In this document: positions 4,855 to 26,100 of the stretch, piece after piece
Position numbering within the stretch: the stretch's first letter is position 1
How the letters are laid out: each line of letters starts with the position of its first letter
Assembly (NCBI GenBank): GCA_905221615.1
Contig: CAJNDT010006187.1
Span: 1 to 64,000, forward strand
Direction of reading: 5' to 3'
DNA length: 64,000 nt
Origin: Symbiodinium sp. CCMP2592
Taxonomy: Eukaryota > Sar > Dinophyceae > Suessiales > Symbiodiniaceae
Program-made: the position numbers and the translations under genes
The notes under the pieces: model-generated
Seen by the model: only the letters and a program-made list of their open reading frames with translations
Told to the model about the DNA's origin: nothing
The model's database searches: none

Positions 4855-6440
4855 CTATGACGTAGCGTAACACTCTTCGCTGATGATGCTTTCGGGCCAA
4901 TTGTCTTCTAGTTTTACTTGAGGCTTGTCAGGGGCTTGTTGCTGTTCAGGATTGTCAAGGTCACCGAGCGTATCCCTGATGTAATCACGAAAGCGAACTT
5001 TGCAACGCCTAGAGTGGAAGCGCGATCTACCTAAGCATCCCGGACAACGTGCCGTTTTGTTGTTTTCAAGCCATTCAGGCTCCGGTTGCGGCAACGGGAT
5101 TGCTTTCCTCGGTAGGGCCACCCCTGGTAGGCTTTCATAATCAGGCTCATCAGGATTAGCCTCGGCGATAGTGGGTAACAAGTTCGACGAGAACGTCACT
5201 GGGTAGGCCATCTTGAGAGCCCGGGCGACGCATCTTTTCATAGACCCATTTGAGAGTCTGATCATGAAGTGATGCCCTTGCCCACCAATCACGGGGCCGA
5301 GATAGGCACCAATGTCGTATCGACCGTCAACTTGTGATGCAAGGTGTTCTGGGGGCTGAATGTACATGATGCAAGCGAAAGGAAACAACAAGTGAGGCGT
5401 GTGACTCTCACCCAAAGCTCGCTGCAAAGGACTCAACAGTTGACCCTGCGACGTTCCGAACCGGTTGTGTGAAGCAGCCGCATGGCTGTGAAGCAATTCC
5501 ATCGCTTCCTCATTTGCCAACAATTTCAAGCCACTCACGCCCTTGGCGTGAAGCTCGTTGGCCAAAGCGGTTTCTTTAAGCGTGCGGATTGCTCTCTCAG
5601 CTACCGGGGCGTGCTTGCTAGGAGAGGTTTTGGTAGAAACCGAACTCCCACCTGTAACCTCAACAACCTCGGCTGCTATGGCTGCTAAAAGCGGTTCCCC
5701 GTCATGTACAACATGAACTTCTTTGAGACCGAATGAGTTGAGGAATTTGACTAGCTTCCCCACTGTGACTTTTCGGTAATCTCCTGCATAGGTAGCAGCT
5801 GTGCCTACACAATACGTCGGTACGTGCACCACAGCGATCAAACGGATGCCTCGATACCAGTATTGATCCATCTGCACCTCAAGTGGGTCGACACTTTTGC
5901 GTGTTCGGGCGGGCGCTAGCCCTTTAGACCTTACACAGCTAGGACAGCCACCCCAGTAGGGGGTATGACCCTGACGTTGGTGGCGCAATCTAGCTCCGGC
6001 ACCGATGTTTTCGGGGAGAGCTTCTTCAGGGTCTACCGGGGGTTTGGTGTTGTTCGGGGTGGTTCTCTCTAACCCTTCACGGTCATCACCATCATCATCA
6101 AAAAGCTGCTCTAGCTCTTCAACACCAATGGCACCACCCACATCACCTGAATCAAGCAATGGGCGACAGACCGACATGCACGCTGAACTACCTACTGGCA
6201 CGCAGGCTGCACGACCTACCTGCAAGCAAGCTAGACTACCTACCGGAACACAAGCTGGGCAACCTACCTGCACGCAAGCTGGACTACCTAACTGAACACA
6301 CGCTGGGCAACCTACCTGCACGCAAGCTGGACTACCTAGCTGAACACACGCTGGGCAACCTACCGGCAGCACTTCTCTGACAGCGGCACTCTGCAAGAGA
6401 ACCTCACGAGCTCTCTCCTTTGGCTGCTGCTCAAAGGCGG
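4855..6440 (-). CDS. Copia-type integrase (element A pol)
   Basis: This is the 3' part of a long open frame (4855-9192). The zinc-binding end is seen as H-x4-H followed by CPSC (around 5,950). The catalytic triad is D in MDQYWYRG (about 5,866), D in HDGEPLL (about 5,701) and E in APVAERAIRT (about 5,590). After the core come the copia-style lines on element placement and the GYDIGAYLGP-like segment. The enzyme would insert the cDNA into host chromosomes. The frame ends at 4855 in sequence that is not RT, and the next pol part is 2.4 kb away behind repeats. The integrase looks intact in its motifs. Its true N-terminal limit depends on how the overlapping proline-rich frame is used. Confidence 0.85.
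6165..6372 (-). repeat. Eight or so CPAC-containing octapeptide repeats in the pol frame
   Basis: A 24-bp unit (doubling as a 48-bp unit) encodes tandem octapeptides of the form VGCPACVQ, LGSPACVQ and VGSLACLQ, just upstream of the integrase zinc finger. Several units keep a CxxC spacing; others have the first Cys replaced by Ser or Arg. It is followed by an acidic stretch (ELEQLFDDDGDD). I know of no standard copia domain like this. Confidence 0.8.
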
Positions 6441-6446
6441 CTAAAG

Positions 6447-8255
6447 TTACAGGTCGCTGTCGCTGCTGATTGCCTCGACCTCTTCGAGGTCTACAAGCGG
6501 AGGAACCAAAGGTGCCGGTTTCGCTGCCGTTGCCAAACTGGTCGGCGGTGGCACAAATCGTTCCTCTTCCGTGGGCATCTCGATGGTGTAGTGAACGCCC
6601 ACCACCGCCCGGGGTTTCGGCACATGCTTGGATACCGGCATCAGCTTCTTTGTTGTAGGCCTTGGTGTGGCTGCCGGCGGCATGAACGACGGCCTTGATG
6701 TTGGAAATGGCGCCCGGAGAGAAGGCGCTGCTGTGGGCGTTGGCATCGGCGCTGAATTCGGCGCCACTGGTACTGTACTCGGCCTCGGTGCTGTGGTCGG
6801 TCGGGCCGGATAGGGCCTGTAGCGGTAATCCATGGGGATCTGCGGGGGCACGTGCATCTGCATGGGCACCGGAATCTGCATAGGAACCTGCATCTGCATG
6901 GGAAAATGTATGGGCACCTGCATTGTTGCTGGCACCGACCTTTGAGCTGGAACTCGAGGAGGTTCCGGCGTATTCTCCACCTTGGGCGCAGGAGGAGGGC
7001 TCGGCATCCTTGTCGAAGCGGCCTTTGCTTGAGCACTGGCCTTTGCTCGAGCCGCGGCCTGTGCAAAGTCCGTCACTTCTCTCTGGCCCAAGAACCCCAT
7101 CCGGGCACCTTCCATGGCCGAGAAGGGCATATGCCTCGTCGGCACCACAGGATCCACCGCCGCCACCGGAGGTGTTGTTGTTGCCACCGGCTTTGCCACA
7201 GGGGCCGGCGATGTCAAAGGAGCCGGGGTTGTCACAGGAGCCGGCGATGTAACAGGAGCCGGCGTTGCCACAGGAGCCGGCGTTGTTGTAGTTGCGCCCT
7301 TCGGCGGCTTTGGAATCGCTGCCTTCGAACCCTTCGGCGGCTTTGGAACCGCTGCTTTTGGAACCTTTGGAGCGGCAGCCTTCGGAGCGGCCCTCGGTGG
7401 AGGTGGTGCTGTCCAGATGTTGGGCGGCGCTGGCGCGGCCTTTGGCGGACTCTTTGGCGGACTCTTTGGCGTTGGTGGTGTAATCGGAGACTTCGGTGGT
7501 GTGGCTGGCCCCTTTGGGGGCGTACTTGGCACCATAGCTGTTGAGCCTGGGGTCTTCGGTGGAGTCACAGGCTGCTGTGCCCCACGTATCGCGGACAACA
7601 CCCCCTGCCTCCTTTCGCTGGCTCGCTGCCTGAACTGGGCTAGATCCGCAATTTTCTCCTGCATAACGGCGCCCTGGGAGCTGGTTGCGGGCGCACCCGA
7701 GCCAGGAGCAATGTTGGAGGCTGTGGTGCTCGACGTTGGTCTCCATTTGCCCCAACACTCGTCCTCGTCCGTCTCCTCCTCCTGTGCTTCCACGCTCATA
7801 GGGACCGTGCTCGGCTCCGGCACGGGAGGCATAGGAGTTGTATCCGGCTCCGGCATGGGTGGTTTGAGAGGAGCCACTTTCCCACGCCATGCGTACACAG
7901 GAGTGGTCACGACCGGGCTGTCTGGAGAGTCTTGCCTGGCCAGTGCCTTGGCACCAGCCTTCGTAAGAGCGCCGCGGGGAGAAGTCTCCGATCCTGGCAG
8001 AATCAACGGACTCGGCGGCTCCACCGGACTGCTTTCGAAAAGGCTCGCAAAACTCATCGGCGGACTCTCTTCCACCTCTGCTGTCGGCAAGTCCGGCTCT
8101 GTGAGGTGAGGAGACAATTCCGGGGAAGAGACCGGAGTCGGCAGCGCCACGTCGTTGGAGAGCTCCGTCTGCTCCGCCGGCAACCTTTGAACCCGGAAGG
8201 TCGAGTTCTCCATGTCCTGGTCCTCCATCTCTTGGTCCGGATTCGAACCAGACAT
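6447..8255 (-). CDS. Proline/alanine-rich acidic-ended ORF inside element A pol
   Basis: The ATG at 8255 opens about 602 codons, ending in an acidic tail (EAISSDSDL). The N-terminal quarter is acidic and Ser/Pro-rich. A short charged segment (EKIADLAQFRQRASERR) may be helical. Next come PPKSP/PKAA repeats, TPAPVTSPAPV repeats, a Met/Pro/Gln stretch (QVPMQIPVPMQM) and a more ordered C-terminus. It lies in a different frame from the protease and integrase, yet their frame also stays open across it. The composition here is protein-like, while the overlapping frame reads as disordered Gly/Ser/Cys-rich sequence, so I take this frame as the coding one. Function is unknown: it may be a linker reached by frameshifting or an accessory protein. 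Confidence 0.55.
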   Translation of the reverse strand: MSGSNPDQEMEDQDMENSTFRVQRLPAEQTELSNDVALPTPVSSPELSPHLTEPDLPTAEVEESPPMSFASLFESSPVEPPSPLILPGSETSPRGALTKAGAKALARQDSPDSPVVTTPVYAWRGKVAPLKPPMPEPDTTPMPPVPEPSTVPMSVEAQEEETDEDECWGKWRPTSSTTASNIAPGSGAPATSSQGAVMQEKIADLAQFRQRASERRQGVLSAIRGAQQPVTPPKTPGSTAMVPSTPPKGPATPPKSPITPPTPKSPPKSPPKAAPAPPNIWTAPPPPRAAPKAAAPKVPKAAVPKPPKGSKAAIPKPPKGATTTTPAPVATPAPVTSPAPVTTPAPLTSPAPVAKPVATTTPPVAAVDPVVPTRHMPFSAMEGARMGFLGQREVTDFAQAAARAKASAQAKAASTRMPSPPPAPKVENTPEPPRVPAQRSVPATMQVPIHFPMQMQVPMQIPVPMQMHVPPQIPMDYRYRPYPARPTTAPRPSTVPVAPNSAPMPTPTAAPSLRAPFPTSRPSFMPPAATPRPTTKKLMPVSKHVPKPRAVVGVHYTIEMPTEEERFVPPPTSLATAAKPAPLVPPLVDLEEVEAISSDSDL

Positions 8256-8258
8256 CAC

Positions 8259-9192
8259 GCCTTACACACCCTATTTGGCCTTCCGAGCATGAGCGGCTTT
8301 GGGCTTCGGGGTATTCACTGCCGGGACCTAAAAGGTGAGAAGACGCAACCGACCGACCGACGCACAAGCTACCTACACTCCTAGATCCTACTTCTCCTAA
8401 GGGGTGAGACGAGGCAACCGACGAAACTGCACTGCCTACGCTTCCCTTCTCTTCACTTTGCAAAACAAGCATAGAAGGATCTGGCTCTACATAGGTGCAA
8501 GCTTTCAACCACGACGTGTTGGCGTACAATTCTGTCTCAAAGCGCAGACCACCCGGAGGATAGGCTACGTGTAACTGAGGATCATAGTCATAATGAAAGA
8601 TCCTAAAGCCTAAGGACTGCAAGATGCCTGAGCTAAGGATGCTTATCGAATTGGGGGCAATATACGCTTCCAGCTGCACTCGAATCTCTCTGTAAGCTTG
8701 GGTTCCAGAGGGCCCCGATTCGAAACAAGGGAACCAAAGCTCTAGCAACCCATACCTAGTTATCTCCATAGTCTGGTCGTTGGCGACACTTACAAAGAGA
8801 GGCTCAACCTCAAGCTCTCGGATCAGCTTCGCAGTCACTCCAAGCATGTCTTGCGAAACAAGGTGAACACTCCCACCGCTATCAATCAAGAGATACGAGG
8901 GGTCGTCCCTAGTGACTGCAGGAAGTGCCAAAGTTGGAAAAGCAAGGCACTCTGAAGACCGATCCCGAAGCTGAGGCTGCGGCGCGGAAGCAAGTCTCAA
9001 AGCAATCACTGCTACGGCTACGCAAGCATACGTGAAACATGACTGCCGTGGGCTACTCAAGCATGCAACCAACCGACAAATCAAGCATCCTACCATGCAA
9101 AACATGAAAAACGTGAAAATCAAGGCAGTCATGGTGAAAAACTGTCCCCTCTCAGGCATTGCTTCAGAAATCTGCCCTGCCGCGGGCAACAA
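8259..9192 (-). CDS. Aspartic protease region with preceding hydrophobic segments (element A)
   Basis: The frame overlaps the end of the nucleocapsid ORF by about 64 bp and sits in the -1 frame relative to it, as expected for gag-pol slippage. The first codon of the open stretch is TTG, so no separate start is claimed. Residues 18-45 and about 52-70 are strongly hydrophobic (ALIFTFFMFCMVGCLICRLV and CVAVAVIALRL), like two membrane spans. The protease follows with LLIDSGGSVHLV (about 8,880), a DSG active site typical of retropepsins, which act as dimers to cut the polyprotein. Downstream residues resemble the flap and C-terminal part of the domain. The hydrophobic part is unusual before a copia protease. 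Confidence 0.75.
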
Positions 9193-9811
9193 GACGACAT
9201 AAGGAGGGCCGCTTTGCCAATCTTCCCGGCACCCTTTGGAGCAGTGGGAGCTGGCGCCGCAGTCGAGGAAGGTGCAGGAGGGGCCACCTTGGGAGTGGCA
9301 CTCTCTGTTGCCGCCGCTGCGGTCGCAGCAGCCTTCTCATCGGCAATCCTCTTCCTGCACTCGTTGGCCCAATGGCCCGGCTTGTGGCAGTAATTGCAAG
9401 TGCCCGGCTTCTTCTTTCCAGGAGCCGGCGTTGCAGATCGTGGCCTTCCGCCCTTCTTGCCATCTTTGCCTTTGTCCTTTCCCTTTCCTCCTTTGTCTTT
9501 GCCTTTGCCTTTATCACCATGCTTGCCTTGGCCTTTTCCATGACCTTTTCCTTTGGGCTCGCCACCCTTGGGCTCACCCTTCTCAGAACGATCAGCACCA
9601 AAAGCTGCAAAGCCCTTGGCGTTCGAGGCTTCCTTGTGAAAGTTCAAAACACGAAGCTGCTCATCATAGAAAACCAAACCGCGCTCAAGCTGCTCCAAGG
9701 TTGTCAAAGACCCATGCAACAAAAGGTACTTCTTGCAATCATCATGAAGGTGCTTCAAGATGCAACTGATAACATCAGCCTGCTGCAGTTCAAGGTCTGG
9801 GTACTTGTTGG
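9129..9811 (-). CDS. Gag C-terminal part with CCHC zinc knuckle (element A)
   Basis: This frame continues the capsid domain (NKYPDLELQQADVISC onward) after a frame break at 9812. A Lys/Gly-rich basic stretch follows (KGKGHGKGQGKHGDKG and similar, about 9,600-9,430). Next is one zinc knuckle, CNYCHKPGHWANEC, with the C-x2-C-x4-H-x4-C spacing that binds RNA in nucleocapsids. The tail is Ala/Pro-rich and ends at 9129, overlapping the protease frame. It needs a one-base shift from the upstream gag ORF, so it is either decayed there or relies on slippage. Confidence 0.8.
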
Positions 9812-10528
9812 CTAGCGAGCAAAATCAGAAATCATATGGCGAAAAATATCCAATGGCCGTCTCAAGTGCTTTGGTGGCGCGATCAAGAGAGCCTGCTCTC
9901 TGAGCGCCTGTCCCTCCACACGAGACCTAACAGACAGTTCTTTGTTCAACTCACGCCAGAGGTCGTACCCTGCAGCGGCACCGCCTTGACTCAACTCGAC
10001 AAGCTTGGCTATGTCAACTCCTCGCTGAACACCAGCGAGAGCCTGCTTCAAGAGGTACCACAGCTTAGTGGAACGAGCGGCCTTCCCCTTTGAGAGGCTG
10101 ATCTGCTGAACCTGAACACCGCTCTCCACAGCCTCTTGCAGTTCCTCCGCGTAGCGGTCGTCTAAAAGACACAGCCAGGAGGTCAGTTCTTCGCGGTAAG
10201 CGGTCCACGTGGAGATTTCCTCATGGCGCGATCTCATCTTGTCTGCTGCCAACTTTGGCAGGGACGGAATGTAGTTTTCCGCCCTGTTGCTGCGCAAGCC
10301 TGTGTCCACATCCATCTTCACAACACCATCAGAGTCAACTCTGATGGCACCCAGGCTTCCAAGAGCTTCAGCGGGCGTCCCTTGGGACGAACTTGCAGCA
10401 ACAGGAGCTGCACTTGCGGCCGAACTTGCAGCGTTTGCACTCGCAACGGCGAGCGTCTTCACCATCTCGGTGAGCTGCGAAATCTGGCCCTGCTGAGCTC
10501 GGATCTGTTCATCCTGGGCTTGCAACAT
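9812..10528 (-). CDS. Gag capsid-like region (element A)
   Basis: The ATG at 10528 opens 238 codons. The N-terminus is a Gln-rich helix (QAQDEQIRAQQGQISQL), then an Ala/Ser-rich linker, then a helical capsid-like region (TAYREELTSWLCLLDD to RPLDIFRHMISDFAR). It stops at a TAG at 9812-9814. The sense of the protein continues directly in the -1 frame. Coding sequence of the same kind also lies upstream of this ATG, so this is an internal methionine of a longer gag. Confidence 0.75.
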   Translation of the reverse strand: MLQAQDEQIRAQQGQISQLTEMVKTLAVASANAASSAASAAPVAASSSQGTPAEALGSLGAIRVDSDGVVKMDVDTGLRSNRAENYIPSLPKLAADKMRSRHEEISTWTAYREELTSWLCLLDDRYAEELQEAVESGVQVQQISLSKGKAARSTKLWYLLKQALAGVQRGVDIAKLVELSQGGAAAGYDLWRELNKELSVRSRVEGQALREQALLIAPPKHLRRPLDIFRHMISDFAR

Positions 10529-11279: not shown

Positions 11280-11288
11280 ACAAGGCTG
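11280..11288. repeat. Left 9-bp target-site duplication (ACAAGGCTG) of the inverted-repeat array
   Basis: ACAAGGCTG directly abuts the first terminal inverted repeat. The same nine bases occur again right after the last one at 18457. Confidence 0.8.
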
Positions 11289-12352
11289 TACTGTGAGGTT
11301 CTCTGATGTGTCCTACATTTTTTGTTGTTTTCCGGGCCCCGAAAATGGGCTCGTAAAGCTCGTCGAAAGTGTGGCAGGGTAGGGAAGCCCTGGACGGAGG
11401 TTTTCAGGCCTGGAGAAGTGTTGGGAGGGACTTGGCAAGGCTGCGGTGCATGAATAGTAGACGCCTTCAAATAGTGCCCGAATAGTGCCCGAATAGTGCC
11501 CGAAATAGTGCCCGAACTAGTGCCCGAATGAACCCTTCATAGTGCCCAAATGATTTTTCGCGAAGAAAAAGGAGATTTTCCTTCCTCTACGAAAGGAAAT
11601 GTATTTGGGCACCATGAAGGGTTCATTCGGGCACTATTTCGGGCACTATTCCGGGCACTATTCGGGCACTATTCGGGCACATGCCAGGTGGAGGCTTGGG
11701 CGGCATTATCTGGAAGGCTAAGGGTTGGGAGGCCTGCAGGACCACCAAAACACTGGAAATGCGCACGAAGAATAGGAATTTGCGCTGCAGGAGGCATTGG
11801 GGAGTGATCTGCGGGGCAGGGTTTGGAATGCAAAAGGGGAAGTTTAGGGAAGGATCTGCAGAGTTTAGGGCAGGATCTGCAAGGCTTTGGGGGAGGGTCC
11901 GCAAGCAAGCGTTTGGAGGAGCAGACACGAAAAACATGAAGGGTGGCATGTGCAAAAAATTGTAGGGTAGTCTATCTACAAGTTTACGGGGGCCTTGGCC
12001 ATGCGAGGGTTTAGGGAAAGATCAGGCAGGACTTCGGGGAGGATCTATAACGAGACTTTATGAAGGAGTTATGGTTTTTATCGAGTGCAGCAGCAGTCAG
12101 TCATTGACAGTCTTCTTGTTTGCATATTCAGAAACCTCCCCCCCGCCCCCTCAATTTCAATGTGTGCCGCAATGTGTGCCGCAATGCTCATTGGGCGCTT
12201 CTATGTAAACATTGAATTTGGGGGGAGCGGGGGGTCTGGAAGGTTTCAAGATTTGTGGACAAACAATTCCAAAATTGTACTATCGCGCGAGGCCATTTTC
12301 AGTGTTCGAAAAACCACGAAAACTGTAGGACGCATTAAGGTACCCCCATAGT
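11289..12352. repeat. Inverted-repeat transposon unit 1
   Basis: First and most left-diverged copy: its left end reads TACTGTGAGGTTCTC where the other units have a GGGGG run. It contains the CGGGCACTAT hairpin (11,470-11,683), a GTTTAGGG(A/C)AGGATCTGC minisatellite (about 11,845-11,890) and a second GC-rich inverted repeat (12,131-12,247). Confidence 0.8.
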
Positions 12353-12822
12353 CAGTTGCCGCCTTGCTTGCCATGCTGTGGTATTTATGACAAGTAGTTG
12401 TCATGACATCATGGTCAACAGTCTCAAGCTGACCACGCACAGACCCCGCGCATAGCTACAAGGTTGTTTTTCGAGCAAAGTTCCAATCCAATTGGGAGCG
12501 TCTTTGTCCAAAGGTTTTCGATCCATTCTAGAGCCCATTTTCGAGCTCCAAAAACGAAGCCCAAAATGGGGTCTCCCCTAATAGTTTCCAATCAGGCGGT
12601 CTCAGCTTTGGGAACCAATTTTTGGCCTCAAAATGGGGACCAACCCGAGCTCAAAAACTGCGGAATTCTGCGAGGGAGACGTGTTTGAAGCTTTACCAAA
12701 GTTTTGCCCGACATGCGGCGACCAGTGTCGCGAGCGACCGCGTCTGTTGAAATCAATCAAAACGCTCCGTTGCTACCCTGGTGATTGGGCTTGTGCTGCT
12801 TAAGCACCGTTGTTTGCCACTG
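12353..12822. repeat. Array spacer 1
   Basis: 470 bp lying between two inverted-repeat units. It starts CAGTTGCCGCC and contains a small palindrome (ATGACAAGTAGTTGTCAT, about 12,388). Its small ORFs recur in all spacers simply because the array is duplicated. Confidence 0.75.
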
Positions 12823-13885
12823 TAACTGTGGGGGTACTCTGATGTGTCCTACGTTTTTTGTTGTTTTCCGGGCCCCGAAAATGGGCTCGTAAAGCTCGTC
12901 GAAAGTGTGGCAGGGTAGGGAAGCCCTGGACGGAGGTTTTCAGGCCTGGAGAAGTGTTGGGAGGGACTTGGCAAGGCTGCGGTGCATGAATAGTAGACGC
13001 CTTCAAATAGTGCCCGAATAGTGCCCGAATAGTGCCCGAAATAGTGCCCGAACTAGTGCCCGAATGAACCCTTCATAGTGCCCAAATGATTTTTCGCGAA
13101 GAAAAAGGAGATTTTCCTTCCTTTACGAAAGGAAATGTATTTGGGCACTATGAAGGGTTCATTCGGGCACTATTTCGGGCACTATTTCGGGCACTATTCG
13201 GGCACTATTCGCACAGGTGGAGGCTTGGGCGGCATTATCTGGAGGGCTAAGGGTTGGGAGGCCTGCAGGACCACCAAAACACTGGAAATGCGCACGAAGA
13301 ATAGGAATTTGTGCTGCAGGAGGCATTGGGGAGTGATCTGCGGGGCAGGGTTTGGAATGCAAAAGGGGGGGTTTAGGGAAGGATCTGCAGAGTTTAGGGC
13401 AGGATCTGCAAGGCAGGATTTGGGGGAGGGTCCGCAAGCAAGCGTTTGGAGGAGCATACACGAAAAACATGAGGGGTGGCATGTGCAAAAAATTGTAGGG
13501 TAGTCTATCTACAAGTTTACGGGGGCCTTGGCCATGCGAGGGTTTAGGGAAAGATCAGGCAGGACTTCGGGGAGGATCTATAACGAGACTTTATGAAGGA
13601 GTTATGGTTTTTATCGAGTGCAGCAGCAGTCAGTCATTGACAGTCTTCTTGTTTGCATATTCAGAAACCTCCCCCCCGCCCCCTCAATTTCAATGTGTGC
13701 CGCAATGTGTGCCGCAATGCTCATTGGGCGCTTCTATGTAAACATTGAATTTGGGGGGAGCGGGGGGTCTGGAAGGTTTCAAGATTTGTGGACAAACAAT
13801 TCCAAAATTGTACTATCGCGCGAGGCCATTTTCAGTGTTCGAAAAACCACGAAAACTGTAGGACGCATTAAGGTACCCCCATAGT
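12823..13885. repeat. Inverted-repeat transposon unit 2
   Basis: Nearly identical to unit 3. Begins AACTGTGGGGGTACTCTGATG, ends GGTACCCCCATAGT. Hairpin at about 13,005-13,213. Confidence 0.8.
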
Positions 13886-14355
13886 CAGTTGCCGCCTTGC
13901 TTGCCATGCTGTGGTATTTATGACAAGTAGTTGTCATGACATCATGGTCAACAGTCTCAAGCTGACCACGCACAGACCCCGCGCATAGCTACAAGGTTGT
14001 TTTTCGAGCAAAGTTCCAATCCAATTGGGAGCGTCTTTGTCCAAAGGTTTTCGATCCATTCTAGAGCCCATTTTCGAGCTCCAAAAACGAAGCCCAAAAT
14101 GGGGTCTCCCCTAATAGTTTCCAATCAGGCGGTCTCAGCTTTGGGAACCAATTTTTGGCCTCAAAATGGGGACCAACCCGAGCTCAAAAACTGCGGAATT
14201 CTGCGAGGGAGACGTGTTTGAAGCTTTACCAAAGTTTTGCCCGACATGCGGCGACCAGTGTCGCGAGCGACCGCGTCTGTTGAAATCAATCAAAACGCTC
14301 CGTTGCTACCCTGGTGATTGGGCTTGTGCTGCTTAAGCACCGTTGTTTGCCACTG
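13886..14355. repeat. Array spacer 2
   Basis: 470 bp, essentially the same as spacer 1, including the ATGACAAGTAGTTGTCAT palindrome. Confidence 0.75.
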
Positions 14356-15427
14356 TAACTGTGGGGGTACTCTGATGTGTCCTACGTTTTTTGTTGTTTT
14401 CCGGGCCCCGAAAATGGGCTCGTAAAGCTCGTCGAAAGTGTGGCAGGGTAGGGAAGCCCTGGACGGAGGTTTTCAGGCCTGGAGAAGTGTTGGGAGGGAC
14501 TTGGCAAGGCTGCGGTGCATGAATAGTAGACGCCTTCAAATAGTGCCCGAATAGTGCCCGAATAGTGCCCGAAATAGTGCCCGAACTAGTGCCCGAATGA
14601 ACCCTTCATAGTGCCCAAATGATTTTTCGCGAAGAAAAAGGAGATTTTCCTTCCTTTACGAAAGGAAATGTATTTGGGCACTATGAAGGGTTCATTCGGG
14701 CACTATTTCGGGCACTATTTCGGGCACTATTCGGGCACTATTCGGGCACTATGCCAGGTGGAGGCTTGGGCGGCATTATCTGGAGGGCTAAGGGTTGGGA
14801 GGCCTGCAGGACCACCAAAACACTGGAAATGCGCACGAAGAATAGGAATTTGTGCTGCAGGAGGCATTGGGGAGTGATCTGCGGGGCAGGGTTTGGAATG
14901 CAAAAGGGGGGGGTTTAGGGAAGGATCTGCAGAGTTTAGGGCAGGATCTGCAAGGCAGGATTTGGGGGAGGGTCCGCAAGCAAGCGTTTGGAGGAGCATA
15001 CACGAAAAACATGAGGGGTGGCATGTGCAAAAAATTGTAGGGTAGTCTATCTACAAGTTTACGGGGGCCTTGGCCATGCGAGGGTTTAGGGAAAGATCAG
15101 GCAGGACTTCGGGGAGGATCTATAACGAGACTTTATGAAGGAGTTATGGTTTTTATCGAGTGCAGCAGCAGTCAGTCATTGACAGTCTTCTTGTTTGCAT
15201 ATTCAGAAACCTCCCCCCCGCCCCCTCAATTTCAATGTGTGCCGCAATGTGTGCCGCAATGCTCATTGGGCGCTTCCATGTAAACATTGAATTTGGGGGG
15301 AGCGGGGGGTCTGGAAGGTTTCAAGATTTGTGGACAAACAATTCCAAAATTGTACTATCGCGCGAGGCCATTTTCAGTGTTCGAAAAACCACGAAAACTG
15401 TAGGACGCAATAAGGTACCCCCATAGT
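14356..15427. repeat. Inverted-repeat transposon unit 3
   Basis: 1,072 bp. Close to unit 2, with one extra CGGGCACTATT in the hairpin arm and a longer G run near 14,905. Confidence 0.8.
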
Positions 15428-15895
15428 CAGTTGCCGCCTTGCTTGCCATGCTGTGGTATTATAACAAGTAGTTGTCATGACATCATGGTCAACAGTCTCA
15501 AGCTGACCACGCACAGACCCCGCGCATAGCTACAAGGTTGTTTTTCGAGCAACGTTCCAATCCAATTGGGAGCGTCTTTGTTCTTTGGTTTTCGATCCAT
15601 TCTAGAGCCCATTTTCGAGCTCCAAAAACGAAGCCCAAAATGGGGTCTCCCCTAATAGTTTCCAATCAGGCGGTCTCAGCTTTGGGAACCAATTTTTGGC
15701 CTCAAAATGGGGACCAACCCGAGCTCAAAAACTGCGGAATTCTGCGAGGGAGACGTGTTTGAAGCTTTACCAAAGTTTTGCCCGACATGCGGCGACCAGT
15801 GTCGCGAGCGACCGCGTCTGTTGAATCAATCAAAACGCTCCGTTGCTACCCTGGTGATTGGGCTTGTGCTGCTTAAGCACCGTTGTTTGCCACTG
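15428..15895. repeat. Array spacer 3
   Basis: 468 bp. Differs from spacers 1 and 2 by a few substitutions and single-base gaps (for example around 15,460 and 15,580). Confidence 0.75.
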
Positions 15896-16948
15896 TAACT
15901 GTGGGGGTACTCTGATGTGTCCTACGTTTTTTGTTGTTTTCCGGGCCCCGAAAATGGGCTCGTAAAGCTCGTCGAAAGTGTGGCAGGGTAGGGAAGCCCT
16001 GGACGGAGGTTTTCAGGCCTGGAGAAGTGTTGGGAGGGACTTGGCAAGGCTGCGGTGCATGAATAGTAGACGCCTTCAAATAGTGCCCGAATAGTGCCGA
16101 AATACTGCAGTGTCCGAACTAGTGCCCGAATGAACTCCTTCATAGTGCCCAAATGATTTTTCGCGAAGAAAAAGACATTTTCCTTCCTTTACAAAAGGAA
16201 ATGTATTTAGCCACTGTGAAGGGTTCATTCGGGCACTTTTTTTGGGCACTATTTTCGGGTACTATTCGGGCATCTATTCGGGTGCCAGGTGGAGCTTGGG
16301 GCATTATCTGGAGGGCTAAGGGTTGGAAGGCCTGCAGAACCACCAAAACACTGGAAATACGCACGAAGAATCGGAGTTTGTGCTACAGGAGACATTGGGG
16401 TGTGATCTGCGAGGCAGGGTTTGGAATGCAAAAGGGGGAGTTTAGGGAAGGATCAGAGTTTCGGGCGGGATCTGCAACGCAGGATTTAGGGAAGGGTCTG
16501 CAAGCAATTTGGAGGAGCATACACGAAAAACATGAGGGGTAGCATGTGCAAAAAATTGTAAGGTAGTTTATCTAGAAGTTTACGGGGGCCTTGGCCATGC
16601 GAGAGTTTAGGGAAAGATCAGGCAGGACTTTGGAGAGGATCTATAACGAGACTTTATGAAGGAGTTATGGTTTTTATCGAGTGCAGCAGCAGTCAGTCAT
16701 TGACAGTCTTCTTGTTTGCATATTCAGAAACCTCTCTCCCGCCCCCTCAATTTCAATGTGTGCCGCAATGTGTGCCGCAATGCTCATTGGGCGCTTCTAT
16801 GTAAACATTGAATTTGGGGGGAGCGGGGGGTTTGGAAGGTTTCAAGATTTGTGGACAAACAATTCCAAAATTGTACTATCGCGCGAGGCCATTTTCAGTG
16901 TTCGAAAAACAACGAAAACTGTAGGACGCATTAAGGTACCCCCATAGT
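15896..16948. repeat. Inverted-repeat transposon unit 4 (most diverged)
   Basis: 1,053 bp with many substitutions and small deletions, notably in the hairpin (16,077-16,275), where one arm has lost repeats. It is the oldest-looking copy. Confidence 0.8.
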
Positions 16949-17403
16949 CAGTTGCCGCCTTGCTTGCCATGCTGTGGTATTTATGACAAGTAGTTGTCAT
17001 GACATCATTGGTCAACAGTCTCAAGCTGACCACGCACGACTCCGCGCATAGCTACAAGGTTGTTTTTTCGAGCAAAGTTCCAATCCACTTGGGAGTGTCT
17101 TTGTCCAAAGGTTTTCGATCCATTCTAGAGCCATTTTCGAGCTCCAAAAACGAAGCCCAAATGGGTTTCCAATCAGGCGGTCTCAGCTTTGGGAACCAAT
17201 TTTTGGCCTCAAAATGGGGACCAATCCGAGCTCAAAAACTGCGGAATTCTGCGAGGGAGACGTGTTTGAAGCTTTACCAAAGTTTTGCCCGACATGCGGT
17301 GACCAGTATCGCGAGCGACCGCGTCTGTTGAAATCAATCAAAACACTCCGCTGCTACCCTGGTGATTGGGCTTGTGCTGCTTAAGCACCGTTGTTTGCCG
17401 CTG
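16949..17403. repeat. Array spacer 4
   Basis: 455 bp. Carries deletions relative to the other spacers, for example loss of the GGGGTCTCCCCTAATAG stretch near 17,163. Confidence 0.75.
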
Positions 17404-18456
17404 TAAATGTGGGGGTATTCTGATGTGTCCTACGTTTTTTGTGGTTTCTGGGCCCCGAAAATGGGCTCGTGAAGCTCGTCAAAAGTGTGGCAGGGTAGGA
17501 AAGCCTTGGACGGAGGTTTTCAGGCGAAGTGTTGGGAGGGACTTGGCAAGGCTGCGGTGCATGAATAGTAGACGGCTTCAAATAGTGCCCGAAGAGTGCC
17601 GAAATAGTGCCCGAACTAGTGCCCGAATGAACCCTTTATAGTGCCCAAATGATTTTTCGCGAAGAAAAAGGAGATTTTCCTTCCTTTACGAAAGGAAATG
17701 TATTTGGGCACTATGAAGGGTTCATTCGGGCAGTATTTCGGGCACTATTTCGGGCACTATTCGGGCACTATTCGGGCACTATGCCAGGTGGAGGCTTGGG
17801 CGGCATTATCTGGAGGGCTAAGGGTTGGGAGGCCTGCAGGACCACCAAAACACTGGAAATGCGCACGAAGAATAGGAATTTGTGCTGCAGGAGGCATTGG
17901 GGAGTGATCTGCGGGGCAGGGTTTGGAATGCAAAAAGGGGGGGTTAGGGAAGGATCTGCAGAGTTTAGGGCAGGATCTGCAAGGCAGGATTTGGGGGAGG
18001 GTCCGCAAGCAAGCGTTTGGAGGAGCATACACGAAAAACATGAGGGGTGGCATGTGCAAAAATTGTAGGGTAGTCTATCTACAAGTTTACGGGGGCCTTG
18101 GCCATGCGAGGGTTTAGGGAAAGATCAGGCAGGACTTCGGGGAGGATCTATAACGAGACTTTATGAAGGAGTTATGGTTTTTATCGAGTGCAGCAGCAGT
18201 CAGTCATTGACAGTCTTCTTGGTTGCATATTCAGAAACCTCCCCCCCGCCCCCTCAATTTCAATGTGTGCCGCAATGTGTGCCGCAATGCTCATTGGGCG
18301 CTTCTATGTAAACATTGAATTTGGGGGGAGCGGGGGGTCTGGAAGGTTTCAAGATTTGTGGACAAACAAGTCCAAAATTGTACTATCGCGCGAGGCCATT
18401 TTCAGTGTTCGAAAAACAACGAAAACTGTAGGACGCATTAAGGTACCCCCATAGTA
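17404..18456. repeat. Inverted-repeat transposon unit 5
   Basis: Ends the array exactly at ATAGTA. The left end (AAATGTGGGGGTATTCTG) resembles unit 4, but the internal part (17,640-18,450) is close to units 2 and 3, suggesting recombination between copies. Confidence 0.8.
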
Positions 18457-18465
18457 ACAAGGCTG
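18457..18465. repeat. Right 9-bp target-site duplication (ACAAGGCTG)
   Basis: Matches 11280-11288 exactly. Removing 11289-18465 would rejoin the flanks as one ACAAGGCTG. Confidence 0.8.
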
Positions 18466-19178: not shown

Positions 19179-19872
19179 TGTGAAAAGTTGTACCTCTAAG
19201 CTGCTTGAGTGGTGGAGCCTCAGTGTGCTGGGCTGCGATATGTATATCATCCTGCTGACTGCAGTTGGAGTGAGCCAATTTTCCTGCGATTCCTGGAATT
19301 TTCTGAGGTGCAATGGTTATCTGGATTTTTTCTGCATGGTTTTGGCTTTGCAGAGGTTTTCTCAAAGCACTGGAAGATTTTCACTGGGAGCTGCGGTTTT
19401 CATGGCATGGAACCTTGGTTTTCAGCTGCGAGAACAGTTTTCGACATGTGGCATGAGTTGCTTGAGCTTTTGAGTGAGATGAGTCAATACTGTGAGCCGT
19501 TAGTCCGCATGAGTTCTCGAAGGCCTCAAGGTACCTTCTCGAACAGCTGTAGTGTATGCGAGTTTGTTTGCCAGCGTGGAGCTTGTAGAGAAGCTGCGAC
19601 GGTATGCTTTTGAAGCGAAGTTTTGTTTTGGCATGTGCTGAAGCACATGTGAATCCGGAGTGCCGCGCTTTATGTGTGGGTCAAGGCTGGAAAGCTTTGA
19701 GACTGAAGCTCGTTGAAAGAATGGGCCAATGATGAAACATGTTCTGAGGCTCATTACAGCAAAGCTTTAGTTGACAGCAGTGCAGTGCAAGAACAGCTGA
19801 ACACTTCGTTTGTTGCGCGAGCAAAAGTCTGTGCAGACCTTGACGGGTTGTTCAGGGTTTGTAAGTTTTACA
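19179..19872 (+). repeat. 5' LTR of element B
   Basis: Starts TGTGAAAAGTTGTACCTCT and ends AGTTTTACA. Aligns along its whole length with 27736-28439, with scattered substitutions and short indels. Small ORFs within it are shared by both LTRs and are not genes. Promoter elements cannot be defined by eye; no TATA-like box stands out. Confidence 0.92.
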
Positions 19873-19884
19873 TGGTAGCGGAGC
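19873..19884 (+). promoter_or_regulatory. Primer-binding site (initiator Met tRNA-like)
   Basis: TGGTAGCGGAGC begins immediately after the 5' LTR. It matches 10 of 12 bases of TGGTATCAGAGC, the copia primer site complementary to initiator methionine tRNA. Minus-strand DNA synthesis would start here. Confidence 0.75.
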
Positions 19885-19930
19885 ACTGTTTGTGCTCCCA
19901 CACCATTTCCGCCGACCCAAAGAAGGTGTT

Positions 19931-22900
19931 ATGTCTCAAAGGCCTATAGGTCCAAGTGCTGAGGCGCCAGCTCCGTGTAGTCCAGGTCTTGCTGAGGCTG
20001 GAGGGGAGTATGGGTGTGGTACAGCTGGGTGTGGGCAACAGGAAAGGAGGCAAACAGGTGTGGAAGGTGTGAGTGGTGTTGGGTCAAGCGATCCGTGGTT
20101 TACAGGTGTTCAGAGAGATCCCTGGGCGTTGTACGGAAATCGTATGCGTGCTGGAATGGGACCGATGGAGTCTCATATTAGCATGCCATGTCCACCTTCG
20201 AGCGGTACGCCTTCAGTTGCAAGTGCGTGTGCTGGCATTAGGCCAGTGGCGCCAGCCCCAGGTTTGTCAGTGCCTTCAGGTCCTGCGAGGAATCTTTCGA
20301 CAGTTCCGAATCAAGGATGTTGCAGTCAGGTTTCTGGAGATAATGTGAGTGCAGGGAGACATCTGCTTGATCGCATGAGTTCGCGTGAGTTGCAGTCCTT
20401 GTATGCAGATCTTAGCCAAAGACTGAATGTCCCTGTGAGTGGGCAGTTTGTTCCTGAGAGATTGGGGCAGTCGCCACTTGATTTGAATGTGCCAGCTTTC
20501 GTGAGACATCAAGGTAACACGTTACCTGGTGTTCCAGCTGAAAATGCGAGGAGCAGTGAAGACAAAGACGTCTTTAGTCGCAGTGAGAAGTGGCTAGGGT
20601 CTCCACCTACGCCAAATCATCAGGCGTGGAAAGGGCGTGAATCTGAAGTGCTGGGCATGAATGCCTATATTCACGAGTTGGTTGCATGGGCGAACCAAGC
20701 AAGTGTTGAGTTTGGGAAGGAGATCGCTCAGGCCGCGCGATGGCCTACACAGATTGCATGGAACACGTTGTCTAAGAGTCAACAAGCGCGAGGAGTTCGT
20801 TTGTTTAGTGTGCTGAAGGCAGCGTTTGCAGATCATGGGCGGATAACTCTTATGATCCAAAGTTTTGGAGAAGGGCTTGACATTGTTGCAGTCGCCATGC
20901 AGGGAGATGTTTTTGGAAACTCTCTTTCGTATATGGGTAATGGTTTTGAGTTGCTGAGGCAGCTTGCCAAGGAGTTTTCTCTGAGAAGCCGTGCTGAGGC
21001 TATGAGTCTCAGGGCGATGCTGATGGCAAGAACGTTTCGAGCGCAGGACTCGTCAGCTCCAGTTGCTGACACAGTGCGTCAGATTGAGGTGGCAGTGGCA
21101 AGGTTTGTGCGTTTACTTTCGACGCTAGATCCTAGAGATGCTGCTGGGTTTCCTTTGACTGACAGTGATCAGCTTACGCTTTTGATGAGGTCTTTGCCTG
21201 AGAGCGCGAAAGCGTATACGTTACATCATTCGCAAGGTGAGACATATGCCTCATATCGATCTTCAGCTTTGCGATGGGAACATCAGCAGCGTTTGTTTCT
21301 TGAGTTGCAAGGGGCCAAAGGTTTGTTTGGCTTGCATGAAACCGAGTTTTCTGAGAGCGCAGGTTCGCCTGAGGCAGGTGAGGGAATGGATGGTCACGTC
21401 TTTGGCATGAGTGCTAGGCCTTCTGATGCTGGGAGCGGTGTGAAGTGCAACCGTTGTGGCAAGAAGGGGCATCAAGTGAATCAGTGCACGGCAGACCTTT
21501 CCAAGGTTAAGTGCTTCAAGTGCGGAGAGATGGGCCACATATCTTTGAACTGTGCCAAGGGCAAGCAGGGTGATGTTTCTCAGTCAAGTGCGAGGCCTAA
21601 GGGTTCTGATGGCAAAGGTGCTGCTGCGGCCAAGGGTCAAGTTTCTTTTTCGCCTAAAGGCAAGAGCAAAGGAAAAGGAGGAAAGAAAGGAAAAATGTTT
21701 GCTCTGTTTGATGAGGAAACGGGGGTTTGGTGGTACACAGATGCTGATGAATCTTTTTACACCGAGGAAGGTGATGAGCAAGAAGCACAGCAGGTGGACT
21801 CCACTCTTGTGTTATCTTGTGTCATTGAGTTAACTGATGAGCCCAATACGCGTTTTGAAGCTGTCCTTGAAGACAGCGAGTCGGTGTCTGTTGTGCTCCA
21901 AGAGCAGTTGTGTCAACCATTGTTGCAGTCGTTGGGTCAATCGCTTGGAACTGAGTTTTGGCTGCTTGACTCAGGTGCGTCATGCTGTGTTATCAACCAC
22001 GTGACTTTGAAGACGCTTCCGCATGATGAGTTGACTGCATGTGGTTCGACGTTTATGGCTGCGAATGGGACTCCTGTTCCCTTTGATGGTCGTTGCCATG
22101 TTGTGCTAAAGGTTCGCACAAAGGATTCAAGTGGAGCTACTAAGAATGGTGTCTGCAAGATTCCTGTGATGGTGGGTGACACTCCTTACAATATCCTGTC
22201 AACGCGAACTCTTGGAAGGCATGGTTGGCGTGTTGTCTTGGATGAAGGCGTTTCTGTGTGTCATGTGAAGTCGGGTGTTGATATGATTGATACCTGTATT
22301 TGGTGTGACACGCCTTGGATCCGCGTGATTCCTCATTCAGAAGGTGATCTCTTGTTGCCGTCGGATGCCTCAGTTGATCCTGCTCCAATTTCCTCGATTG
22401 GACATGTTGCAGTTGTTTCGCAGAAGACCAAGGGAGATCTTGAAATTCACAGAGCAAAGGGCCACATGCCCTTCCATCCTGATTGCGAGCATTGTCTGAA
22501 GTCCCGAGGTGTTACCCAACACAGGCGAAAGTCTGAGCGCGGAGTTGAAACAGAGATTGTTGCAGATTTTACGTTTCTGGACTCTTCTGGAGAGATGATC
22601 AGCGTGGCTGAGCGCCAGACAAGTAGCTCTTTCAAGGTCCTCGTCCTTCGTGAGGCCTTTTCTTCTTCTATTGGGGCTGTGATGATAACTGAGAACATTG
22701 CAAAAGACAGAGGTCTTCTTTTGAAGTGGCTTGCTGAGTTTGGGATGTCGTCCTCACAAGCAAGCATTGTGCTTTTGACAGATTCCGAAGAAGCGGTGAA
22801 GTCGTTTGTTGCAGGTGCGTCGGATAAGTACATTTTTATGGTGCGCAAGGCTGCGCCACAGGCTCATGAACAGCTTGGTGGTGCGGAAAGGACAGTCCGG

Positions 22901-23149
22901 GTCCTTAAAGAAGGGCTAGCTACCTTGCAAAGTGATTTTCAGTCGCTTGGTTGCGTTTTGTCGTTTCGGAGAGACTTGCTGCAGCTTGCACTTTCTTACC
23001 TGTGCATGAGTGTGAATGCGAATGGCAAAGCTTTTGGCGGTGAACGCTCTCCAAAGGAGGTTGCAGTTGGTCGAAGGTTGCCAGATACCCCTTTTGCGTT
23101 GTTTGGGTCCAAGGTGCTTGCTGAGGTGCCCGAATATGTCGCGTTTTGA
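19931..23149 (+). CDS. Gag-protease-integrase polyprotein (element B)
   Basis: The first ATG is at 19931; the open frame gives about 1,072 residues. The N-terminal 150 are disordered. A helical capsid-like part follows (about 230-460). Two CCHC knuckles come next (CNRCGKKGHQVNQC near 506, CFKCGEMGHISLNC near 527), then a basic Gly/Lys stretch. The protease has LLDSGASCCVI near 679. Integrase shows an H/C zinc end (HRAKGHMPFHPDCEHC, about 840) and a DDE triad: D in EIVADFTFLD (about 877), D in LLTDSEEA (about 951), E in GGAERTVRVL (about 985). Gag, protease and integrase share one frame with no stop between them, unlike element A. The frame ends at a TGA at 23147, where the protein sense passes to the +1 frame. 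Confidence 0.9.
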   Translation: MSQRPIGPSAEAPAPCSPGLAEAGGEYGCGTAGCGQQERRQTGVEGVSGVGSSDPWFTGVQRDPWALYGNRMRAGMGPMESHISMPCPPSSGTPSVASACAGIRPVAPAPGLSVPSGPARNLSTVPNQGCCSQVSGDNVSAGRHLLDRMSSRELQSLYADLSQRLNVPVSGQFVPERLGQSPLDLNVPAFVRHQGNTLPGVPAENARSSEDKDVFSRSEKWLGSPPTPNHQAWKGRESEVLGMNAYIHELVAWANQASVEFGKEIAQAARWPTQIAWNTLSKSQQARGVRLFSVLKAAFADHGRITLMIQSFGEGLDIVAVAMQGDVFGNSLSYMGNGFELLRQLAKEFSLRSRAEAMSLRAMLMARTFRAQDSSAPVADTVRQIEVAVARFVRLLSTLDPRDAAGFPLTDSDQLTLLMRSLPESAKAYTLHHSQGETYASYRSSALRWEHQQRLFLELQGAKGLFGLHETEFSESAGSPEAGEGMDGHVFGMSARPSDAGSGVKCNRCGKKGHQVNQCTADLSKVKCFKCGEMGHISLNCAKGKQGDVSQSSARPKGSDGKGAAAAKGQVSFSPKGKSKGKGGKKGKMFALFDEETGVWWYTDADESFYTEEGDEQEAQQVDSTLVLSCVIELTDEPNTRFEAVLEDSESVSVVLQEQLCQPLLQSLGQSLGTEFWLLDSGASCCVINHVTLKTLPHDELTACGSTFMAANGTPVPFDGRCHVVLKVRTKDSSGATKNGVCKIPVMVGDTPYNILSTRTLGRHGWRVVLDEGVSVCHVKSGVDMIDTCIWCDTPWIRVIPHSEGDLLLPSDASVDPAPISSIGHVAVVSQKTKGDLEIHRAKGHMPFHPDCEHCLKSRGVTQHRRKSERGVETEIVADFTFLDSSGEMISVAERQTSSSFKVLVLREAFSSSIGAVMITENIAKDRGLLLKWLAEFGMSSSQASIVLLTDSEEAVKSFVAGASDKYIFMVRKAAPQAHEQLGGAERTVRVLKEGLATLQSDFQSLGCVLSFRRDLLQLALSYLCMSVNANGKAFGGERSPKEVAVGRRLPDTPFALFGSKVLAEVPEYVAF

Positions 23150-26100
23150 GGCGGCAGCGTTTCTTCATCCGCAATTTGGGTCGCTTGGGAGCTTGGTGTA
23201 TGCACATGTGCGTGTGGGCCAGGTCTTGACGCCAAAGGTGTTTGTTGCCAAGTCGATCAAGCTTGTGTTTCCGATTGAGCTTGTCTTCGAGTCGGGGATG
23301 TTTGAAGTTTTGCGTCGTCGTGGTGAGCTTGGGCCTGAGAGGCCAGATCATCCAGTTGCGCCTCGGATTCTTCCGAGTTCCCAGGGTGCCTCTTTGAAGT
23401 GTCCTGTTTCCGGTCCGCCAAAGGAGTTTTTTGAGAGGTATGGGTTCTCAGGTGAGTGCCGAGCGTGTTCTAACATGGCACAATTTGGGTCTAGGAAGGG
23501 CTCTTCTCACGGTCGGGCTTGCTGTTTGAGATATGAAGCGTGGTTGCGGTCGCAAGTTGCAACAGATGACAGCATGGACGTTGAAGTGCCTGTGGCTTCG
23601 GATGCAGAGGCTATGCGTGAAGCTCTTTCTGAGCTAGCCGAGGATGAGTCGAGGCAAGACCGAGCTGTGGAGGAGGCTCAGGGTTCTCCTTTGCCTCCCC
23701 CGGCCAGTGGGGACGCTGCTTCGTCTGAGGCTCCAGCGAGGATTGTGAGCGAGGCGGCCCCTAGTGGTCGTGTTTTCACGCGTGGTTGTCCTGCGTGCGA
23801 GTCTGGCATGAATGCTCCTGGCATTCGTCACAATGCTGATTGCAAGCGAAGGAACCAACATCTGAGTGTTAGATTTTATGTTTCTGGGGAGCCCGATGAT
23901 GACGAAGCTTCATCCAGGCGTCTGCCTGAAAATCTTGAAGGAGCTGCTGCTCCTGAGTCTGAGGGCATTGGGGCTCTTGATGAGGACACTGAGATGCCGT
24001 TTGCCGATCCAGTGTTGACTGGAAGTGAAGGCGGAGGCAGCCTAGAGGCTGAAGAAGTGCTTCGTGGAAGCAGTGCTGTGAAACGCTCCTCTGAAGTCCC
24101 GTTGGAAGATCTGGAGCGTGAGATCAGGCAGGACCAAGAAAGGGTTGCTTCAGTTATGGTTACCTTCCACAATTGCGAAACAGGGAATGATGTTCACATG
24201 CCTCTTGCGAGTTTTGTTGAGCAGGCGTTCCAGGTTTCCAATTATGTCCCTTTGCTTTCAGGGCTTGTGGATTCGGTTCAGTTCGCCCCGAACTCTACGA
24301 GTGTTGTTTTGCCGTTTGGGAAAAGGTCGCATTTGAGACTTTGGAAGCCTAGTTCCGCTGTTGATGACTCTACCTTGGGTGAGCTTTCAGGAGATCAGGT
24401 CATGGAAGGCATGGTCAAAGAAGTCAACAATTTGAGTCACATGGAAACTGGGGATCTGTTGACTGCTTCAGAACTTCAGAGTCTTGAGAAGAGGTTCCCA
24501 GGTACCTTGAAGGTCATCCCTAGTCGTTGGGTCACGACGCAGAAAACACCAACTACTGTGCGAGCTAGGATTGTCATCAAGGATATTGCTGGCAAGAACT
24601 CAGAGTCTGCAAGGGCTTTGGGCATTTCAAGTCCTACTCCTAGTGCCGATGCTTTGTTCACGGTTCTTGGGGTTGCAGGTTGCAGAGATTGCGTGATTGC
24701 GAGCGCTGATGTATCTCACGCTTTCATGGCTACGCCTTTGAGGGAAAGGGATGTGGTTATGAGGTTTCCTCTGTCAGTGTCTTCGGTTTCGGGGGATCCT
24801 TTGTATCTTCACCTCAACAAAGCCCTCAATGGGCTACGCAAGGCTTCGCAAGAATGGATTTACTTCGTAGGGGAGACTGTGAAGGTTTTGGGGCTTCAAA
24901 GTTGCAGCTTAGAGCCGTGTCTGTTTTCAGGCATGCTTGAGTCAGGTCCCTGTTTGCTGTTGGTCTATGTGGATGATTTTCTGTGCATTGCGCCAACAAA
25001 GGAGGATGTAGATCACATCTTTGGAGTGATTGAGGAGAAAGTTGAACTCAAGAGAACTGGGTTGATCAATTCTTCCAAGGATGGCGGTGGCACTTTGCGG
25101 TTCATTGGTAGGGTTATCTCCAGGAGAAAGGGGGAGTCCTCTATCACAGTGTCTTTGCCAGAAGATTATTTGGATGAGACCTTCAAGGCTTATGGTCTTT
25201 CGGGAAAAGGTTCCTCAAGTCCCCCAGATGTAGCGGTTCATGTTGAGAAGCTAGATGGGGTTCCATTGTCTCCTGAGGCGTATGCCAGGTTCAGGTCTGC
25301 GTTGGGGAAAGTAGCTTGGATGACGCAGACTCGTCAGGACTTGCGTGCTTATGTGTCAATCTTGGCAACGCAGCAAGCCACACCCACGAATCATACTGAG
25401 CATGGTCTCCGAGCCTTGCTTCGATTTCTGAAGAACGACATGTGCGTGGTTGTGCGGTTGCCTGCTGCGAGTGATGTGTTGGCTCCCTCGCAACACTACC
25501 AAGGAAAGAGGCACCTTGTGTGTTTCTCTGACGCATCGCATGCGCCTTTGAGGTGCACGAAGCGCCGTGGAATCAGTGGAGGAGTGTTGACACTTGATGG
25601 CTGCGTGATAAAGACTTTGTGTCGTCACCAACAGCTTGTGTCGCTGTCGTCTATGGAGTCAGAGCTGTTTGCGTTGCAGTCGGTTGCTCAAGAAATGTCG
25701 AGTCTTGGAAAGTTCATGGCAAGGGTCTTCATGTCGTTTCGAGAAAGCGAGGAAGTTGAATTGCCTGGGGTACTTTACAGTGACTCAGAAAGCGCTTTGA
25801 AGCTTCTTCGCAATTTGGACACACCCAGGCAAAGCAGACATCTTGAGATAAGAGTCGAGTGGCTTAAAGCTCGTGTCGCAGCGGGTTCTTTGGTCCTTGC
25901 GTTTAAGAAGGGAATCGAAAATCCGTCAGACCTCTTGACTAAATGTTTGGGGTCCTCGGCTTTCGGGATACATCGCGAAGCGTTGGGCTTTGAGTCGCTG
26001 TCGGGACCACTTGCGTCTTTGTGCAATCATGAGAAGAGATTGGTGATGGTTGAAGTGTGCTGTCGACCGCAGTCGAGTGTTCAAGGTGCATGTCGCAGAG

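Follow-up and report, generated by a model that had tools for sequence, protein, structure and literature searches.

Within the 64,000-nucleotide window analysed here (positions 1–64,000 of the 363,755 on contig C5325 of Symbiodinium sp. CCMP2592), positions 11,290–18,455 hold five units of about 1.06 kb, denoted E, which alternate with four spacers of about 470 bp, denoted S, all in one orientation. From sequence comparison, we consider it reasonably probable (about 0.6) that in such arrays one E inserted alone and that later recombination with S-E donors, not a jump of the whole array, built the rest. The original element appears to survive, split in two, at the outer edges of most short arrays that were tested, so that its history is legible at individual loci. 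The proposed history is a concrete path, open to testing, by which a solitary DNA transposon could become a satellite array, and it separates insertion (at TA, by a transposase) from amplification (by recombination), two processes that are seldom easy to tell apart in satellites derived from transposons.

An earlier, sequence-only reading of the window had described five units, four spacers and 65-bp inverted ends, and this anatomy is confirmed. In the family consensus the termini of E form an imperfect inverted repeat of 65 bp, with an alignment score of 70 against 34 for the best of 500 shuffles; in the S consensus no inverted ends above those of shuffled sequences were detected (score 24; shuffle mean 21.8, maximum 41). 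In a self-comparison of the window the array matches only itself, among the matches listed, and S was not found adjoining it. Tandem duplication in place of one solitary insertion, which the earlier reading had judged insufficient, is ruled out by this result; the S spacer is imported, and the array has the outer boundaries of a single insertion.

E and S recur in the assembly searched (1.1 Gb). The best 22 of 347 candidates gave 137 matching stretches, and S alone as the query gave 64 (best 40 of 291 candidates). Arrays with the same ends and different copy numbers, which the sequence-only reading had suggested looking for, were read on 29 contigs besides the window. Because some contigs share identical flanks, the independent loci number at most 26, the window included: the pairs C1974/C2779, C491/C2358, C2358/C2848 and C4494/C5125 have identical flanks with differing arrays, and C131 and C2480 have 2.5 kb of left flank in common at 99.8%. 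The commonest structure read is E-S-E (seven stretches); E-S, E-S-S, S-S-E, E-S-S-E, E-S-S-S-E, E-S-S-S-E-S and longer arrays also occur (L042 is an E-S-S-E locus), with truncated units in several and with no inverted units in the arrays read. An outer-end pattern, TACTRTGGGGGTAC, has 65 forward and 59 reverse matches (control, 2 and 7). Among the 100 of these 124 outer-end sites that were listed there are 12 inward-facing pairs, with sizes of 1,061, 1,975, 2,335, 2,592, 2,593, 2,595, 2,602, 2,612, 3,084, 3,566, 3,580 and 7,129 bp; five of the 12 loci were read and the remainder are known by size alone. The size of E-S-E (2,592–2,612 bp) accounts for five of the pairs and that of a solo E (1,061 bp) for one.

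The target of the family is a dinucleotide, mostly TA. By hand tally, the dinucleotide before the outer left ends is TA in 14 of 18 readable cases, TT in three and TG in one (the truncated, contig-end or shortened left ends of L012, L013, L023, L032, L037, L039 and L043 are excluded); after the right ends it is TA in 19 of 25 readable cases, TT in two, TG in one and unclear in three. L017 and L030 have TT on both sides, and TA stands at three of five outer ends at five further E places. Paralogous empty sites carry a single TA for L015, L016 and L018 (with the sequences GACTATGC, CTTACTAG and GCGTACAG), and the paralogue of L009 reads TG (AGGTGCTT). These cover four of the eight loci in the joined-flank query, L018 having been seen in a separate search. 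For L017, L024, L025 and the window no match spanning the joined flanks was found among the best 40 of 870 candidates, and a separate search in which 11 of 11 candidates were scored gave no empty site for the window.

The sequence-only reading had drawn attention to a perfect 9-bp duplication at the outermost ends of the window's array. It is present, with ACAAGGCTG at both flanks and a match of 12 bp once the adjacent TAC is included, but it is not the target-site duplication of the family. None of 14 other loci has so long a flank duplication, the longest common stretch being 7 bp; among 210 mismatched flank pairs taken as a control, 9 bp was reached once and 8 bp once. Since members of the family are flanked on either side by a dinucleotide that is usually TA, the target duplication of the window is read as TA, with ACAAGGCTG outside it; ACAAGGCTG was either present twice in the target before insertion or produced by an atypical event. 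Mutator-like elements have target-site duplications of 9–11 bp, and both a target and an identity of this type are rejected because the 9-bp duplication is seen at the window only, among the 15 loci compared, and the empty sites show 2 bp. The TTAA target of the piggyBac/CMITE type does not agree with the four empty-site sequences. Helitrons and Helentrons have no target duplication and no terminal inverted repeats, and Helitron-type tandems are ruled out by the inverted ends and 2-bp target duplication of E. What is found agrees with Tc1/mariner: a TA target duplication (at the four empty-site loci, with exceptions that include TT on both sides at two loci) and terminal inverted repeats in the 65-bp ends of E.

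The distribution of substitutions, counted against the family consensus, bears on how the arrays were built. The nearest-unit and first/last tables exclude L011, L013, L014, L020, L021, L022, L033 and L039, which are second stretches of one contig or contigs with identical flanks. The first E units (n = 18) have 82 substitutions in the left half and 26 in the right, and the last E units (n = 17) have 24 in the left half and 47 in the right (Fisher test of first against last, 3e-8); internal E units (n = 21) have 52 and 33, respectively. Counted by unit, 13 of the 18 first E units lean left and one right, with four ties, and 13 of the 17 last E units lean right and two left, with two ties. Nine arrays other than the window possess both terminal E units; together they have 49 substitutions in 9,621 bases of outer halves and 31 in 15,285 bases of interior (Fisher test, 4.6e-5).

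The order of the substitutions could be tested in nine of ten arrays (L009 has none). All first-E substitutions lie to the left of all last-E ones in seven of the nine (L015, L016, L017, L018, L025, L037 and L042), and the reversed order occurs in none. The observed statistic was reached in 0 of 200,000 permutations, with or without the window, and six of eight testable arrays are still ordered when ten recurrent positions are removed. Apart from these ten positions the outer substitutions mostly differ between loci, and the interiors of most short arrays are nearer to the genome-wide consensus than to locus-specific variants. At L041 the substitutions 696G and 1052A stand together in one E (unit 1); at L018, 696G is in the first E and 1052A in the last. 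Most simply read, the pattern suggests that recombination opened one older E, whose two pieces now lie outermost, around a newer interior. Units also seem to travel between loci, judging from 12 unit pairs on different contigs that have at least three substitutions in common, including the third S spacer of the window with a unit of C4494; some of these pairs have identical flanks.

Inside the arrays, a TA duplication is found at none of the 115 junctions recovered, with patterns that would miss strongly diverged junctions (L011, L021, L022, L033 and L039 are left out of this set; L012 and L014, which have a common right flank, are both kept). TAG is present in 48 of 50 E-S junctions, with filler in the other two, and CTG in 44 of 45 S-E junctions; the 20 S-S junctions have CAG in 14 cases, CTG in four, a deletion in one and filler in one. 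Where S forms the outer end of an array, it ends in AACAG before TA at three loci, and at L036 TA is followed by CTGTCAG. At each of the common internal junctions, two ends meet over a single 3-nt step that is part of one of them. An E-E junction of the same form has no match in the genome (control, 0), and random ligation of the units is disfavoured by this and by the uniform orientation of the units in the arrays read. The earlier suggestion that units had jumped into their own spacer finds no support, since TA is duplicated at none of the junctions recovered and identical 3-nt steps are seen repeatedly. It is as if ends with 3-nt 3' overhangs, the product of a Tc1/mariner-type cut, had been joined; the TAG, CTG and CAG steps fit the 2–3-nt staggered cleavage of Tc1/mariner, and no excision product was observed. 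Excision of E from S-E-S would leave a similar step, so S-S could have originated in this way.

The favoured history, in which a solitary E is followed by recombination, would proceed as follows. E would be a non-autonomous DNA transposon with terminal inverted repeats, probably of the Tc1/mariner type, inserting at TA, the target seen at four loci; S would be a passenger repeat of about 475 bp. E and S may once have been joined end to end (E-S, S-E and S-S) through 3-nt steps, like ligated ends with a 3-nt stagger, and this joining may have yielded circular or tandem S-E donors. Homologous recombination between such a donor and an E already resident at a TA site would then split the resident. 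The left-hand portion of the resident would survive as the left-hand side of the first E, and its right-hand portion as the right-hand side of the last E. Between them would lie S and E copies that are young and close to consensus, as the substitution pattern at seven of the nine testable loci suggests. Integration of a circle, or out-of-register gap repair from an array elsewhere, would lead to the same product, and repeated rounds may lead to longer mosaic arrays such as that of the window. Because the outermost ends are those with flanking TA, a finished array could still move whole, and the observed pattern could arise without such mobility as one element. As a tentative extension, S, which lacks detectable inverted ends, might be a genomic parasite of the transposon that spreads between loci by homologous recombination; solitary E would provide the landing pads and end-joined E-S excision products the donors, and a DNA transposon would in this way seed dispersed satellite arrays at TA sites.

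The window itself has E unit 1 diverged up to unit position 657, then S, E, S and E near consensus, and then an older block in which E unit 4 is the most diverged; it appears to be an older mosaic that would fit several rounds of recombination. Contig C2824 has the left flank of the window (100% over 100 bp; identical for 303 bases from window position 11,191), the same left junction and the same left end of E unit 1. Further slices of C2824 match window positions 8,591–8,651 and 1–19, and one slice has no match. Between base 1 and 13,200 of C2824, ten of ten 200-bp slices are E or S, and judged from the slices the array seems to extend for 14.3 kb to the contig end. Of the substitutions in the window's E unit 1, the first three are also present in the first E of C2824 and the following two are absent; this E of C2824 has in addition a deletion of 11 bp. 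C5325 and C2824 are two versions of one locus, either alleles or the result of an assembly error. Since C2824 has the same left junction, apparently followed by E and S over 14.3 kb, five may not be the true number of units in the window.

Several observations weigh against the favoured history. Its main weakness is that the supposed precursor, a solo E, is rare (one of the 12 pairs); no solitary E was present among the five further E places checked, one of which is on a contig already read, and no donor circle was seen. The window has no outer excess of substitutions (outer halves 13/1,069, 1.22%; interior 78/6,164, 1.27%) and neither has L037 (0.19% in both). The interiors are near consensus and not exactly at it, with 0–4 substitutions in eight arrays, 16 in L024 and 78 in the window. 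The window and L024 fail the order test, and the flanking dinucleotides of L024 differ, being TT at one end and TG at the opposite end. Arrays that end in S (eight loci read) and one that starts with S (L036) need differently built residents, and three of the S ends have no clear TA. Short-read polishing anchored in unique flanks could mimic old edges around an interior close to consensus; the divergence seen inside L024 and the window speaks against a general artefact only. As to the cut itself, the relevant passage of PMC2170065 places that of ISY100 mostly 2, not 3, nt inside the 5' ends, and, as to the donor step, the passage of PMC2642840 on Mos1 in vitro describes 12 sequenced circular products as autointegration, not as end-joined circles.

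The sequence-only reading had proposed that a pre-existing array moved as a 7.2-kb macro-element. In terms of the TA target, the outermost E ends with their TA would be excised, and the E-(S-E)n array would reinsert in one piece at a new TA. Flanking TA matters for cutting, to judge from work on Hsmar1, and since the internal ends lack the TA duplication, it is the outer ends that seem able to be cut. A clean single-site target at the empty sites of four E-S-E arrays, the prevalence of E-S-E both among structures read and among paired sizes (sites listed), and the rarity of solo E all speak in its favour. However, mutation after a jump should be even, whereas the substitutions lean outward and the first and last E are complementary in seven of nine arrays; the outer substitutions, the ten recurrent positions apart, are also mostly locus-specific. 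What stands of the proposal is that the array is delimited like a single insertion, with TA at its outermost ends; as the main history of the family, a moving array is unlikely. For the window alone, which lacks the split pattern, neither a macro-element nor recombination is favoured.

Satellite turnover, in which unequal exchange and gene conversion homogenise the middle of an array and leave the edges diverged, would explain why the edges are older and the middle more uniform, why C2824 has more E and S at the same left junction, and why the window is a mosaic. It is nevertheless quite improbable, because most short-array interiors are near the genome-wide consensus and are not locus-specific variants, arrays with two E leave little room for internal turnover, and turnover offers no way for S to enter a solo E. 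It is very improbable that collapse or short-read polishing during assembly created the unit numbers and the consensus-like interiors, the biology being a simple element with terminal inverted repeats and a satellite. The four contig pairs with identical flanks and different arrays, and the disagreement of C5325 and C2824 at the locus of the window, would suit such an artefact; yet the short E-S-E arrays lie inside contigs of about 0.5–2.3 Mb, four of them with paralogous empty sites, and strongly diverged interior units persist in the window and in L024.

E resembles non-autonomous Tc1/mariner (IS630) elements, with a 2-bp TA target duplication and terminal inverted repeats; it differs from Tc1/mariner in that its ends begin with CTG, some targets are TT, no transposase is tied to the ends, and the arrays contain S. 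Sleeping Beauty ends begin with CAG. The internal CAG/CTG steps resemble Sleeping Beauty footprints, which the passage on footprints in PMC3952818 gives as CAG or CTG. Tandem long terminal repeat (LTR) retrotransposons, and recombination of Ty5 complementary DNA into resident LTRs, offer a parallel in the sections of PMC11899658 that treat them: a terminal repeat and an internal segment alternate within one outer target duplication, E being the counterpart of the LTR, and recombination through a common terminal repeat can give tandems. In contrast with these, E is a DNA transposon with terminal inverted repeats and a TA target, and S can occur one to three times in a row; for the rice tandem LTR elements, the authors prefer in these sections a single insertion over recombination, unlike the reading here. 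The coral CMITEs, in the portion of PMC2872659 devoted to them, are likewise tandem full-length miniature inverted-repeat transposable elements (MITEs) with similar spacers, but they measure about 100 bp, have TTAA targets (piggyBac type) and are attributed by the authors to replication slippage. Xenopus miDNA4, from its description in a part of PMC12628747, is a Tc1/mariner MITE with a variable number of satellite monomers; there the satellite is inside one element, whereas S separates complete copies of E. Double insertion (McGurk and Barbash 2018, as cited in passages of PMC9659126 and PMC12628747) also has tandem transposons seeding satellites, but repeated insertion at TA would be expected to leave internal target duplications, and none is present at the junctions recovered. 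Among the open-access matches listed, no description was found of a spacer that uses a transposon with terminal inverted repeats as its landing pad in recombination.

Ten matches to the DDE_3 (Tc1/mariner-type) transposase lie on eight contigs, eight of them without stops. Comparison of these matches with the outer-end pattern tied no transposase to the E/S ends: none of six DDE_3 contigs carries the exact pattern among the sites listed (C4595 and C5194 are beyond that list). DDE_3 matches and an E-S array whose left end is altered (L029) occur together on contig C2846. Positions 42296–49637 of C2846 hold three DDE_3 stretches with a spacing of 3.56–3.57 kb and open frames of 306–411 amino acids, which may be tandem copies of an element that carries a transposase, and an E-S-E-S array lies on the same contig. 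At C42:23689–27733, two identical outer ends (TACTGTGGGGGTAC) face inward 4,045 bp apart; this pair is possibly a longer relative.

Coordinates of the array and its flanks in the window; substitutions are relative to the family consensus.
Feature	Position	Strand	Remark
Left copy of 9-bp flank duplication, ACAAGGCTG	11280..11288	+	seen only here among 15 loci tested
Left target dinucleotide TA	11289..11290	.	inferred from family rule
Outer left inverted end (E left end, ~65 bp)	11290..11354	+	family consensus
E unit 1	11290..12352	+	12 substitutions, unit positions 8-657 only; none in 658-1069
S spacer 1	12353..12824	+	0 substitutions
E unit 2	12825..13885	+	2 substitutions
S spacer 2	13886..14357	+	0 substitutions
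E unit 3	14358..15427	+	2 substitutions
S spacer 3	15428..15897	+	6 substitutions; 6/6 also in last S of contig C4494 (L021)
E unit 4	15898..16948	+	42 substitutions, unit positions 202-1032; most diverged E
S spacer 4	16949..17405	+	11 substitutions
E unit 5	17406..18455	+	16 substitutions
Outer right inverted end (E right end, ~65 bp)	18391..18455	-	family consensus
Right target dinucleotide TA	18455..18456	.	inferred from family rule
Right copy of 9-bp flank duplication, ACAAGGCTG	18457..18465	+	

The E units of the window also contain a palindrome of repeated 'cgggcactatt' motifs (for example at 11471–11680), with arms of at most 81 nt that are 51 nt apart; it is clear in four of the five units and weaker in E unit 4.

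Beside the array, retroelement-like reading frames are located at 99–2159 and 4855–10528, both on the minus strand. The frame 99–2159 contains RVT_2 (a Ty1/copia-type reverse transcriptase), and no Pfam match was obtained for the frame 4855–9192 (minus strand). A perfect 265-bp tandem duplication at 1903–2434 crosses the edge of the frame 99–2159. A second retroelement, with a zinc knuckle and RVT_2, is found at 19892–26354 on the plus strand; 19179–20132 and 27736–28439 match one and the same stretch of L018, as LTRs would. A frame of 445 amino acids at 32004–33341 (plus strand) belongs to the Sodium:solute symporter family (SSF). Short, degenerate CCCTAAA-like repeats occur inside the contig at 54304–54376 and 62500–62555.

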